DNA of 64,000 bases, from assembly GCF_040546585.1 (NCBI RefSeq), contig NZ_JBEPOC010000001.1, forward strand, positions 1,798,001 to 1,862,000, written 5' to 3'. The position numbers and the translations under genes are program-made. Each line of letters starts with the position of its first letter. Position 1 is the stretch's first letter. Below, piece by piece: positions 40,458 through 51,912 of this stretch. A model generated the notes under the pieces. That model did no database searches. It was not told the origin of the DNA and worked only from the letters and a program-made list of their open reading frames with translations. The stretch is from Marmoricola sp. OAE513. Its GTDB lineage: Bacteria > Actinomycetota > Actinomycetes > Propionibacteriales > Nocardioidaceae.

Positions 40458-41057
40458 TCACCCATAGGTGTCACGCGGCCCGCGGCCCTTGACCCGGAAC
40501 CGCCCGCTGGTCCATTTCGGGACGTGCGGGCCGAGGACGTCGATGACCTCGATGGTGCCGTCCCCGAGCTCCTCGTTCAGTCGTCGTACGACGGTTCCGG
40601 CGAGCATCTTCATCTGCGTCGCCCAGGCCGTCGAGTCGGTGCGGACGACGAGCCGTCCCTCGGCGTACGACTCGGGGGTGACGTGGTTGGCGACCTCCTG
40701 GCCGACGATCGCCCCCCACCGGGTGAACACGCCGTGGACCCGGAGCTCGGTCTGCCAGCCCTGCTCGGAGACGAACCGCCCGAGCGAGGCGTCCAGGGTC
40801 TGGGGGTCCCGGTCGTCGGGGTGCGAGGAGCTGGACCTCGGCTGCACCCGCTGGGGTGCCTTGCCCGTACGCCGGCGCAGCGGTCCGGTCTTGCCGGCGA
40901 GCCCGCGCGCGATGCTGCGGGCGAGGTCGAGCCCGCTCTCGTCGTGCTCGTCCGCCGCGCCGCCCACGGTCCCCGAGCTGCCCCCGGTCGTCGAGCTTGC
41001 CGAGACGTCCCCCGGGTTCGCGCCGGTCTCGTCCCCCGGACGTTCGTCCTCACCCAT
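40458..41057 (-). CDS. dciA: DciA/DUF721 family protein (helicase loader type)
   Basis: Predicted 199 aa. A disordered Gly/Ser/Asp-rich N-terminus (1-90) is followed by the DUF721 domain ([28 protein letters not shown], then [18 protein letters not shown]). DciA-type proteins load the DnaB helicase in bacteria without DnaC or DnaI. The ATG overlaps the recF stop by 8 bp. The N-terminal SASSTTGGS segment is encoded by a copy of the dispersed repeat (about 40979-41006), so it was probably inserted in frame. Confidence 0.9.
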
Positions 41058-43127: not shown

Positions 43128-44294
43128 TCAGGAGGAGAGCAGACGGCGCGGCATCAGCAGGTACTTGAAGCTCGAGCCCGTGTCTGCACTGCTCGCTTCG
43201 AGTGAATCCACTCCCGAGAGTACGACAGGCTTCGCAGAAGTCGTGAACGCCAGCTCGACGTGCGACGTCTCCAGCGCGGTCAGTCCGTCGAGGAGGAACT
43301 GCGGGTTGAAGCCCGTGGTCAGGTCGTCACCGGTGATGTTGGCCTCGATGGACTCGCTCGCCATCGCCTCCTCGCCCGAACCGGCGTCGAGGACGAGGAC
43401 ACCGTCACCGAAGGCGAGCTGCACCGCGGTGTTGCGCTCGGCGACCAGGGCGACCCGCTTGACCGCGTTGATGAGGTCCTCACGGCTGACGACGGCGAGG
43501 GTCAGGTGCTCGCTGGGGAACAGCGAACGGACCTTCGGGAACTCGCCGTCGAGCAGGCGTGTCGTCGTACGGCGGATGCCACCACCGGCGGAACCCTCGA
43601 AGCCGATGATCCCCTCTCCCGCGCCGGAGCTGGACAGAGCGATCGAGATCTCAGCGCCGCCGGTCAGGGACTTGGCGGTGTCCGCAAGGACCTTGGCCGG
43701 GACCAGGGCGGCGGTGGAGATGTCGGGAGTGCCCGGGTTCCACTCGAGCTCACGCTGGGAGAGGCGGAAGCGGTCCGTGGCGAGCATCGAGATCGAGCTG
43801 CCGTCGAGCTCGAGCCGCACCCCGGTCAGGACCGGCAGCATGTCGTCGCGACCGGCAGCGGTGACGGCCTGGCCGACCGCGTGGGCGAACTCGGTGCTGC
43901 TCACCTTGCCGCGGGACTCGGGCATGGGCGGCAGCGACGGGTAGTCCTCGACCGGCATGGTCTGCAGGCTGAAGCGGGCCGAGCCACAAGTCAGGCTGAC
44001 CTTCGGGCCGTCGATCTGCATCTCGACGGGTTTGTTGGGCAGGCTCCGGCAGATGTCAGCGAGCAGACGACCGGAGACGAGCGCGCGTCCTTCGATGGAG
44101 ACGTCAGCGTTGAGCGTGGCCCTCGCGGAGGTCTCGTAGTCGAAGGTGGAGAGCTGCAGGCCGTCGGTGCCGTCGACGGTGCCGGCTTCGATGAGGAGGC
44201 CGGCGAGCACCGGAGCGCTCGGGCGCAGGGGGAGGGCGCGGGCCGTCCAGGCGACGGCGTCAGCGAGAACATCGCGCTCGACACGGAACTTCAC
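43128..44294 (-). CDS. dnaN: DNA polymerase III beta sliding clamp
   Basis: Predicted 388 aa, three clamp domains (VKFRVERDVLADAVAWTARALPLRPSAPVLAGLL start; the C-terminal YLLMPRRL motif forms part of the peptide-binding cleft). The ring-shaped dimer holds polymerase III on DNA. The GTG start at 44294 has GGAGG 8 bases upstream; the longer upstream frame lacks this. It lies directly downstream of oriC on the leftward leading strand. Confidence 0.98.
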   Translation of the reverse strand: MKFRVERDVLADAVAWTARALPLRPSAPVLAGLLIEAGTVDGTDGLQLSTFDYETSARATLNADVSIEGRALVSGRLLADICRSLPNKPVEMQIDGPKVSLTCGSARFSLQTMPVEDYPSLPPMPESRGKVSSTEFAHAVGQAVTAAGRDDMLPVLTGVRLELDGSSISMLATDRFRLSQRELEWNPGTPDISTAALVPAKVLADTAKSLTGGAEISIALSSSGAGEGIIGFEGSAGGGIRRTTTRLLDGEFPKVRSLFPSEHLTLAVVSREDLINAVKRVALVAERNTAVQLAFGDGVLVLDAGSGEEAMASESIEANITGDDLTTGFNPQFLLDGLTALETSHVELAFTTSAKPVVLSGVDSLEASSADTGSSFKYLLMPRRLLSS

Positions 44295-44661
44295 GGGTGT
44301 TGCCTCCTGCAGGTCTGCCGCGAGGTGAGGTCTCACGTCTCGGGATGGGCATCCTGCCACGCGGACCGGTTCGAGGGGAGGTTGTCCCCAAGGAGGGGAC
44401 GTTCCGGTTGTTGCGCGGCGAGGGATGAATGAATAGATCTAGTCGTAGTAGTAGGGCCGGTGGATTCTGTGGACAAGACATGTAACTGCAGGTCATCGAC
44501 AGTTTTCTTGTCCTCAGCGCCTGTGGATCCAGCGCCGGCCAACTACAAGTTCCTGTGGTCTGTACTTCGGGTTGTGCACGGTTGTGCTTGCTTCTCCACA
44601 CGTCGTCCCCAGGTGCTCCACGACGTGAGCCGCGGTTAACCACAGGTTCGGCGGGTGTGCC
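44295..44661. other. oriC: oriC: dnaA-dnaN intergenic region with DnaA boxes
   Basis: A 367-bp gap between dnaN and dnaA. DnaA boxes (consensus TTGTCCACA/TTATCCACA): a perfect one on the minus strand at 44468-44476; one-mismatch boxes at 44382-44390 (TTGTCCCCA), 44508-44516 (TTGTCCTCA) and 44636-44644 (TTAACCACA). Weaker sites (TTGTGCACG near 44572, GGATCCACA reverse near 44522) are also seen. An AT-richer tract lies at 44425-44453. Gene direction on both sides also places the origin here or in the dnaA-rpmH gap. The dnaN promoter must also lie in this stretch. Confidence 0.85.
44425..44476 (-). other. Putative basal unwinding element (DnaA box plus DnaA-trios)
   Basis: Read on the minus strand from 44476: TTGTCCACA, then a degenerate box GAATCCACC (44467-44459), a GGCC step, then CTACTACTACGACTAGATC (44454-44436) and CTATTCATTCAT (44436-44425). 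This is the order of the Bacillus subtilis unwinding element, where DnaA boxes and a GC step precede CTA-type trinucleotides (3'-GAT-5' trios) and the AT-rich unwinding site. Confidence 0.7.
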
Positions 44662-46173
44662 TCAGACCTGCTTGGCCTGCTGCTTGATCCTCATGGTGAG
44701 CTCGTTGACCGTCTTGTAGGTGGTCTGCCGCTCGGCCAGGTCCTTGCGGATCCGGCGCTCGGCATTCATGACGGTGGTGTGGTCGCGGCCGCCGAACTGC
44801 TGGCCGATCTTCGGCAGCGACATGTCGGTCAGCTCGCGGCAGAGGTACATCGCGATCTGGCGTGCCGTGACCAGGGCCCGGGTCCGGCTCGGCCCGCACA
44901 GGTCCTCGATGCTGAACGAGTGGTACGACGCGGTCTGCGCGATGATCAGCCCGGCCGTCACCTGGGGCTCGCCGCCTTCCGGGATCAGGTCCTTCAGCAC
45001 GATCTCCGCCAGGGTCATGTCGACCTCCTGGTGGTTGATGCTCGCGAACGCGGTCACGCGGATCAGGGCGCCCTCGAGCTCTCGGATGTTGGTCTGGATC
45101 CGGGAGGCGATGAACTCGAGCACGTCGGCCGGCGCGTGCAGGCGGTCGGCGGCGGCCTTCTTGCGGAGGATCGCGATCCTGGTCTCGAGGTCGGGCGGCT
45201 GGACGTCGGTGAGCAGTCCCCACTCGAAGCGGTTGCGCAACCGGTCCTCGAGCTGGGTGAGGCGCTTGGGCGGTCGGTCCGAGCTGATCACGATCTGCTT
45301 GTTGGCGTTGTGCAGCGTGTTGAAGGTGTGGAAGAACTCCTCCTGCGTCTGCTGCTTTCCTTCGAGGAACTGGATGTCGTCGATCAGCAGGACGTCGACG
45401 TCGCGGTACCGGCGCTGCAACGCAGCGGTGTTCGCGTCCTTGATCGCGTTGATGACGTCGTTGGTGAAGGCCTCGGAGGACACGTACCGGATCTTCGCGC
45501 CGGTGTAGAGGCTTCGCACGTAGTGACCGATCGCGTGCAGCAGGTGGGTCTTGCCCAGACCGGAGTCGCCGTAGACGAGCAGAGGGTTGTAGGCCTTGCC
45601 CGGTGCCTCGGCCACGGCGACGGCAGCTGCGTGGGCGAACCTGTTCGAGGACCCGATCACGAAGGTCTCGAAGGTGTACCGCGGGTTGAGCGGGCTGTCC
45701 GGGATCCCGGTGGTGAGCGATGCACCCCCCAGGATATTTGTAGACAAAGATCCTTGTTGATTAAGTGACGAGTCTCTTTGTGGCTCCTGATTGAGCGCGG
45801 TGGCGGGCCCGATCTCGGGGGCGACGGTGTTGTCCGCCTCCGCGGTGTCGGGGTTGGCGACGGCCTCGGTGTGCGGCAGGTTGGCCAGGTCGTCGGGAGT
45901 CGAGAGCGACTCGTCGACGCTGACCGCGATCCGGATCGGCCGGTTGAGCGAGTCGCTGAGAGCGTCCTCGAGCCGGGTGCGCAGTCGACCCTCGAGCTGG
46001 CTGCGGGTGAACTCGTTCGGCACCGCGATCACTGCGGTGTTCTCGGCGAGCATGACCGGTTGGCTGGAGGAGAGCCAAGCGCGCTGGTTGGGGGCAAGAC
46101 TGTCGAGGATCGCCGGCCACAGTGCGTCGAGCTCTCGCCCGGTCCCGCTGTTCCCGCCTGTTGCTGACTCCAC
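44662..46173 (-). CDS. dnaA: Chromosomal replication initiator DnaA
   Basis: Predicted 503 aa from GTG 46173 (GGGAG 12 bases upstream); GTGs at 46212 and 46224 are alternatives. Domain I (residues 1-85) is followed by the variable linker domain II (about 86-160), the AAA+ domain with GDSGLGKT (about 200-207), LLIDDIQFL and the arginine finger region NRFEWGLL, and domain IV with the DnaA-box-binding GGRDHTTVMNAERRI. Within domain II a run of rare AT-rich codons (45736-45778) stands out in this GC-rich gene. Transcribed towards oriC. Confidence 0.97.
   Translation of the reverse strand: MESATGGNSGTGRELDALWPAILDSLAPNQRAWLSSSQPVMLAENTAVIAVPNEFTRSQLEGRLRTRLEDALSDSLNRPIRIAVSVDESLSTPDDLANLPHTEAVANPDTAEADNTVAPEIGPATALNQEPQRDSSLNQQGSLSTNILGGASLTTGIPDSPLNPRYTFETFVIGSSNRFAHAAAVAVAEAPGKAYNPLLVYGDSGLGKTHLLHAIGHYVRSLYTGAKIRYVSSEAFTNDVINAIKDANTAALQRRYRDVDVLLIDDIQFLEGKQQTQEEFFHTFNTLHNANKQIVISSDRPPKRLTQLEDRLRNRFEWGLLTDVQPPDLETRIAILRKKAAADRLHAPADVLEFIASRIQTNIRELEGALIRVTAFASINHQEVDMTLAEIVLKDLIPEGGEPQVTAGLIIAQTASYHSFSIEDLCGPSRTRALVTARQIAMYLCRELTDMSLPKIGQQFGGRDHTTVMNAERRIRKDLAERQTTYKTVNELTMRIKQQAKQV
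45733..45785. other. Low-GC patch inside dnaA domain II
   Basis: About 50 bp encoding RDSSLNQQGSLSTNILGG on the minus strand. It uses codons such as AGA, CTT, AAT, CAA, TCT, ACA and AAT that are rare in the surrounding genes. It contains ATTTGTAGACAAAGAT (45736-45751), which differs by one base from 51881-51896 behind parB. Confidence 0.6.
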
Positions 46174-46647
46174 GTGCGTTTCTCGCTCCCTCGTCCTTGT
46201 TGTCCGATCCACACCTTTGTCCACAGGTTGTGCAGGGTGCGCCAGCGGGAAATCGAGCGGTCGAATCGCGTTTCACAGGCGGGCCGGAGAGGTGGACTCT
46301 AGGCTCTAGTCCACGGCTGGATCAACCGTTGTCCACAGGTTTCGAGGATTCAACGGCGTGTCGCTGTGAATATCGCCGGGCCAAGGTGCAGCATCGTCTC
46401 TTTTGAGATGCTGGCGAACGACAAGTCCCCCGCGAATTGACCGTGTGCGGGGCCCCCACGTACCGTTGGAAGGTCGAAACCGGTTCGACCGGTGCCGCAT
46501 GTCCACGACCGGGCCTCGCTGAGGTCCTTTGCGTTGGCAGGCGGTGCCAGTTGTTCGAGATGTGTGACTGGCGACGTTCTGTCGTGCGACCCGGTGATGG
46601 ACCCGTCCCTGCAGAGGGATTCCCTACAAATCGCGTGGAGAGAACTC
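46174..46647. other. dnaA-rpmH intergenic region with DnaA boxes and divergent promoters
   Basis: A 474-bp gap. Two perfect DnaA boxes TTGTCCACA lie at 46217-46225 and 46329-46337, likely for autoregulation of dnaA. The first one covers an alternative dnaA start codon. The rpmH promoter and a 46472-46490 hairpin (GGTCGAA/TTCGACC) are in the right half. No open frame with coding character is seen. Confidence 0.8.
46437..46466 (+). promoter_or_regulatory. Putative rpmH promoter
   Basis: TTGACC (46437-46442), 18-bp spacer, TACCGT (46461-46466). This gives a leader of about 175 nt before rpmH. Confidence 0.5.
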
Positions 46648-51847: not shown

Positions 51848-51873
51848 CTTCAGTCGACCCAACTCTTCAGCGA

Positions 51874-51912
51874 TCTAACTATTTGTCGACAAAGATATAA
51901 AAGGTCTTATCG
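51874..51912. other. AT-rich stretch behind parB with palindrome TTTGTCGACAAA
   Basis: A low-GC island in the gap between convergent parB and plsC. It contains ATTTGTCGACAAAGAT (51881-51896), whose centre TTTGTCGACAAA is a perfect 12-bp palindrome, followed by ATAAAAGGTCTTAT. The 16-mer differs in one base from 45736-45751 within dnaA. Confidence 0.6.

Follow-up and report, generated by a model that had tools for sequence, protein, structure and literature searches.

The window analysed in this study comprises 64,000 nucleotides of the 3.89-Mb genome of Marmoricola sp. OAE513, which is contained in a single contig (NZ_JBEPOC010000001.1, positions 1,798,001 to 1,862,000). Its subject is a short module of DnaA boxes and DnaA-trios in the gap between the genes dnaA and dnaN, which we describe as the predicted basal unwinding system (BUS) of the chromosomal origin of replication (oriC). 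Both genes are encoded on the minus strand, and the stop of dnaA is separated from the start of dnaN by 367 bp. The protein encoded by dnaA (44662..46167) was matched to DnaA of Bacillus subtilis (8btg, E 6.2e-134), and dnaN (43128..44294) begins with a GTG at 44294 that was set by comparison with relatives. Since DnaA of the window is 86–91% identical to records from Marmoricola, Nocardioides and Propionibacteriales, its placement in the family Nocardioidaceae is correct.

The module extends from 44425 to 44476 and is read on the minus strand towards dnaN. It starts with DnaA box 1 (TTGTCCACA, 44468..44476), a perfect actinobacterial box, which is directly followed by the degenerate box 2 (GAATCCACC, 44459..44467) with three mismatches to TTATCCACA. 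A GGCC step (44455..44458), the counterpart of the 'GC-rich region (4 bp on average)' of the published description (PMC8287927), leads from box 2 to five DnaA-trios (44440..44454), which read 5'-CTA CTA CTA CGA CTA-3' on the box strand and 3'-GAT GAT GAT GCT GAT-5' on the opposite strand, hereafter the captured strand. The trios pass into an AT-richer run (GATCTATTCATTCAT, 44425..44439), which is likely a continuation of the opened stretch. This succession of box, degenerate box, GGCC, trios and AT-richer run had been read directly from the letters in the original prediction, and it is right to the base. Trio tract and the run behind it together form the weakest duplex of the gap, whose weakest 20-mers and 30-mers start at 44424-44425, and they belong to the least stable 0.01% of such segments in the window.

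The combination of these parts is specific to the locus. There are eight occurrences of TTGTCCACA in the genome, three of them adjoining dnaA, and seven of CTACTACTA, and the 17-base pattern TCCACNGGCCNTACTAC is found a single time, at the module. We also built a 45-bp profile from the Nocardioidaceae set, with the window module among its training sites, and re-estimated it over the rest (cut-off score 15). It scores 57.0 at the module compared to 13.7 at the next best site in 464 kb searched on both strands (the window and 20 sampled 20-kb stretches).

The published BUS rule requires a DnaA box with at most two mismatches, a spacer of up to 16 bp, most commonly 13 bp and allowed to exceed this limit where the better box serves as reference, and at least three trios of the form 3'-NAN-5', and it allows an optional second box with at most four mismatches (PMC8287927). 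In the window, TTGTCCACA deviates from TTATCCACA at one position, the first trio follows 13 bp further, the three mismatches of GAATCCACC lie within the range of the second box, and three consecutive A-centred trios are succeeded by one with a different centre and another with adenine. By every sequence feature examined, the module thus appears as a BUS.

Conservation of the module

The arrangement is retained in relatives. In an alignment of the window with 19 named Nocardioidaceae-type loci, the order of two boxes, GC step and trios is found with the same spacing in 20/20 gaps, and the TCCAC cores of the boxes and the outer bases of the trios are near-invariant. The original prediction had asked of its own pattern that this order be kept while the flanks vary, and this is what we observe: in parsimony counts on a DnaA tree, which covers 118 of 122 sequences, flanks undergo about 42-46 changes per site, compared to 17-32 in the trios and 2.8-3.2 in the box cores (3.2 in the core columns of box 1 against 42.1 in the flank, and 2.8 in the TCCAC core of box 2).

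The same module is detected far beyond the family. The profile passes in 8/8 gaps of the window's own family and in 28/28 named loci in addition to the window. In gaps taken from the 113 of 117 genomes of the class in which DnaA was found, it passes in 94, representing 58/68 genera and 29/34 families, with a single one of the 94 sites (genome G087) located on the opposite strand. In 705 shuffled gaps, no score exceeds 4.3. Genomes from other classes of the phylum were investigated with a looser scan, which ignores the trio centres and was set at the 99% level of shuffles, and 33 of 57 passed. CTA-like tracts are also present in several of 22 loci from other phyla, a scan that was unscored against shuffles and for which no count is given.

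Adenine or cytosine at the trio centre

Within the conserved trios, the central base varies in a restricted manner. Among 58 genus representatives, defined as the best-scoring genome of each genus and leaning for this reason towards the consensus, the centres of trios 1-5 on the captured strand comprise 115 A, 123 C, 43 G and 9 T of 290, which corresponds to T 115, G 123, C 43 and A 9 on the box strand. The centres were left out of the scoring for these counts, and the same site was chosen in 122/122 cases. Since the gap background contains more C (0.34) than G (0.30), the excess of G over C at the box-strand centres is not a consequence of composition (binomial p 1.4e-12, with related genera being non-independent). 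The centre of trio 1 is A or C in 58/58 genera. Reduced to its 'three in a row' condition and evaluated across the class at the conserved site alone, the published BUS criterion selects 16/58 genera if the centres have to be adenine and 48/58 if either A or C is accepted, compared to 23/58 and 19/58 for the control pairs A/G and A/T. The same lean, although weaker, is found in the genomes of other classes, which were outside the training of the profile (box-strand T 111, G 34, A 11 and C 9 of 165; G over C p 1.7e-4).

This restriction is also reflected in the pattern of substitutions. On the tree of 118 taxa, exchanges between A and C account for 91/160 changes at trio centres and for 56 of 79 in trios 1-3, compared to 83/842 in the upstream and 162/1390 in the downstream flank, and the first and third trio positions show mostly transitions. 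GC pressure was considered as driver of the replacement of A by C at the centres, but the correlation with local GC in the 58 genera was not significant (Spearman 0.16, p 0.24), and such a role is not claimed.

The class-wide use of A and C in sequence matches the amine rule that was measured in B. subtilis. There, as described in the sections of Pelliciari 2023 available to us (PMC10721633), the amine of the central trio base is held by Asn187, cytosine can replace the middle adenine in vitro and partly in vivo, and it supports adenine-like strand separation and better growth than guanine or thymine. Trios without a middle adenine had already been suspected by the authors of the BUS survey (PMC8287927). 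To relate these preferences to the protein, residues were read from DnaA sequences recovered from 139 entries, including 111 of the class and 25 named ones. The equivalent of Asn187 is retained in 110/111 DnaAs of the class (one gap) and in 24/25 named ones (one S), that of Ile190 in 110/111, that of Glu228 in 108/111 and the arginine finger in 111/111; DnaA of the window contains the equivalents of N187, I190, I193, E228 and R264. Because the Asn187 equivalent is near-invariant, the part of DnaA that would read the centre appears fixed, and the observed bases are those that it accepts.

Alternatively, the repeat could be conserved because a different protein recognises C-T/G-A in the duplex, its resemblance to trios being incidental. 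From the letters themselves, amine recognition on the lower strand would look the same as keto recognition on the upper, and the unexplained neighbouring element CTGACCTGCG, described below, suggests that other factors may bind nearby. However, the repeat keeps a constant register relative to box 2 and the GC step and decays with distance from the boxes, it accompanies DnaA boxes throughout the phylum, and it matches the measured preference of DnaA for A and C, which renders a separate reader highly improbable.

A difference to the system of Bacillus concerns the proteins that act alongside DnaA. In B. subtilis, according to the parts of the work available to us, DnaD reads TnnT on the strand opposite the trios (PMC10201434). 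The DnaD family (PF07261) was found in 0/40 class genomes including that of the window, with B. subtilis and Lactococcus lactis as positive controls, and there is consequently no evidence for a DnaD recognition element of the Bacillus type opposite the trios. The freedom of the centre to be A or C may be a consequence of this absence. DciA was found in 38/40 class genomes. In the window, its gene (40458-41057, minus strand) adjoins recF and gyrB and shows a match to PF05258 at 40536-40796, an ancestral helicase operator family.

The predicted opening site

We propose, with a probability of about 0.85, that the module is the basal unwinding system of oriC and as such the predicted site at which DnaA opens the chromosome. 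Its sequence suggests a mechanism in which ATP-DnaA would first bind the duplex at box 1 and at the weak box 2, and from which we infer the subsequent steps. From there, the DnaA oligomer would extend past the GC step along the strand that faces the CTA repeats, with one subunit engaging each trio. The strands would be pulled apart towards dnaN, thereby exposing the AT-richer run for helicase loading, in which, as the DnaD family was not detected, DciA would probably take part. Recognition of a trio would occur via the amine of its middle base, which could explain why A and C both serve at this position.

Several observations weigh against this interpretation. The profile is missed in 19/113 gaps of the class; eleven of these contain a trio-like run at different spacing and eight do not, and since dnaN was not found for five of the latter, the gap taken may in these cases be wrong. 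Likewise, 24/57 genomes of other classes fail the looser scan. Although the order of boxes, GC step and trios is retained in 20/20 gaps of close relatives, where the original prediction would have been contradicted by a loss of the trio bases, there is a partial exception in one genus of the same family (g3, five genomes). Its gaps retain only about two good trios, and the pattern decays after the second, so that a fixed state of the trios can be claimed only with a real restriction. On the side of the protein, the first trio base is contacted in B. subtilis by Arg202. This residue is replaced in a large part of the class (Q 50, R 47, K 14 of 111) and corresponds to Q in the window, an exception among the residues holding single-stranded trios. 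The placement of the origin by GC skew, one of the checks of the original prediction, has remained suggestive: the mean skew of −0.002 to the left and +0.021 to the right of dnaA (20 sampled 20-kb stretches and the window, Mann-Whitney p 0.023) weakly supports an origin in the dnaA region, but the signal is weak, and skew within the window alone does not place the origin.

The strongest point against the module, and the basis of an alternative, originates from experiments on the mycobacterial origin. By permanganate mapping in vitro, Kumar 2009 located the DnaA-dependent opening of the Mycobacterium tuberculosis origin at -500 to -518 from dnaN, in an A+T run near dnaA and not at the module (PMC2607554). 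By analogy, the gap might open at its dnaA end, with the two boxes and the CTA repeats being only a site of DnaA assembly on duplex DNA. The window does not contain an A+T run at the dnaA end, its weakest duplex in the gap being the trio tract, and duplex boxes would leave unexplained why trio-like repeats are kept in a single-strand register, with A or C on one strand. As to the mapping itself, one primer (-292 to -320) contains GCAGGTCGA, a sequence resembling the upstream element, and reads away from dnaN, and the products of a third primer were all short and came from the far side (PMC2607554). Given that two of three primers point in the direction opposite to dnaN, the read-out would not have covered the module, as inferred from the text, although opening at the module is not thereby shown. 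In light of these considerations, we regard an opening at the dnaA end as unlikely.

The region near 46.3 kb, which the original prediction had named as a place where unwinding might instead be mapped, was also inspected. The gap between dnaA and rpmH (46.2-46.34 kb) contains two perfect boxes TTGTCCACA on the plus strand (46217..46225 and 46329..46337), about 112 bp apart. A similarly oriented pair is found in 16/19 relatives, and within 700 bp upstream of DnaA there is at least one perfect box in 19/19 and at least two in 16/19. These conserved boxes are not followed by a trio run in any of the 19 relatives nor, by eye, in the window, and the duplex is more stable than at the trios. Unwinding at this place thus appears very improbable, and the region is better read as a putative DnaA-binding region akin to oriC1 upstream of dnaA in B. 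subtilis, as portrayed in the accessible part of PMC13220808, or as a site of dnaA autoregulation.

The proposed system in the dnaA–dnaN gap can be related to those described before. The term 'Bacillus-like' of the original prediction is appropriate with respect to order, strand and 13-bp spacer, but it overlooks the A/C centres, the upstream element and the missing DnaD family. As in B. subtilis, for which our comparison follows published descriptions of its oriC (PMC6669920, PMC8287927, PMC10721633), a box, a weaker box, a short GC-rich step and trios are arranged on one strand towards dnaN, the trio consensus in the window is 3'-GAT-5', and Asn187, Ile190, Ile193, Glu228 and the arginine finger are kept in DnaA. 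Unlike in B. subtilis, trio centres of the class alternate between A and C, Gln takes the place of Arg202 in the window, CTGACCTGCG is present as an extra upstream part in the class, and there is little AT-rich DNA downstream.

A BUS has been predicted in 1755/2070 bacterial origins, with 15% lacking trios (Pelliciari 2021, PMC8287927). The window complies with the rule of that survey; across the class, three trios in succession are reached at the conserved site in a minority of genera with adenine centres and in most of them with A or C. DnaA-trios and an unwinding element were also annotated in the dnaA–dnaN gap of another actinobacterium, Kocuria rhizophila Noodlococcus (PMC12500396), as annotation only and without class comparison or trio alphabet. 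The origin of Streptomyces coelicolor equally resides between dnaA and dnaN and contains many DnaA boxes; the passages of that work available to us describe two groups of altogether 19 boxes and a spacer that is essential, and do not mention trios (PMC3411110). Taken by itself, the window module thus belongs to a known type, which had been predicted in the majority of bacteria (PMC8287927) and annotated for Kocuria (PMC12500396). What sets it apart as a variant, judged from sequence, is the spelling with A or C throughout the class together with the upstream element at its fixed position. Neither was described in the papers listed by our literature searches, which covered titles, abstracts and passages, with subscription papers and supplements outside.

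So far, the DnaA-trio rule has been derived from a single model species and a small number of assays in vitro. If our interpretation is correct, a GC-rich phylum has long used the freedom between A and C, which would provide support for the amine rule from natural sequences and offer a simple correction for origin-finding programs. For actinobacterial origins, it would further specify precisely where the duplex is expected to open and in which direction, at variance with the published mapping.

The upstream element and further sites in the gap

A conserved element is located at fixed distance before box 1. It has the sequence ATGACCTGCA in the window (44487..44496, minus strand), with the consensus CTGACCTGCG, and starts 20 bp before box 1; its part TGACCTGC (44488-44495, minus strand) is kept at a fixed distance across much of the phylum. 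At least eight of ten positions of CTGACCTGCG are matched in 39/58 genera, a level reached by 1.7% of stretches picked at random from these gaps, and at least seven in 47 genera, in 39 of which it is found exactly 20 bp before box 1. Its core GACCTGC is present in 17/20 Nocardioidaceae-type gaps, it undergoes 21 changes per site compared to 42 in the flank, and it was seen by eye in some genomes of other classes. A DnaA box and a promoter −35 region were considered as explanations and rejected by eye, as the sequence does not fit either. A search of literature text for its letters together with oriC returned nothing on bacterial origins among the matches listed, which is a weak negative.

The element is a lead to an origin component that is undescribed in the sources searched. 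It is conceivable that it constitutes the third fixed part of an extended actinobacterial unwinding module, in which 3'-G(A/C)T-5' trios would be read by their amine, with a freedom gained along with the absence of DnaD, and in which CTGACCTGCG might serve as the site of an unnamed origin factor or of a further DnaA mode. We put this forward tentatively, as a possibility rather than an expectation.

Additional DnaA boxes are distributed over the gap. A weak box (GGATCCACA, 44522..44530, minus strand) lies 54 bp upstream of box 1, where columns -50 to -46 are conserved with 0.61-1.07 bits in the 58 genera. In B. subtilis, the origin depends on a distal box that lies in helical phase (PMC6669920), and the weak box is likely its counterpart by analogy. 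A box of opposite orientation (TTCTCCACA, 44592..44600, plus strand) contains TGTGGA, which is invariant in the 20-gap alignment, and a box with one mismatch (TTGTCCCCA, 44382..44390, plus strand) is found on the dnaN side.

Other minor features include the palindrome AGATCT directly after the trios (44434-44439), a sequence named as ATP-DnaA box in Escherichia coli (PMC10225481). It is also present in 8/20 Nocardioidaceae-type gaps, and other gaps of this type contain GAATTC-like palindromes at the same place. The motif TG(A/G)CAGGAT, perhaps the −10 region of a dnaN promoter, is found in 20/20 Nocardioidaceae-type gaps 60-100 bp before dnaN. Across the entire window, duplex stability is lowest at 51861-51910, between parB and a likely acyltransferase gene.
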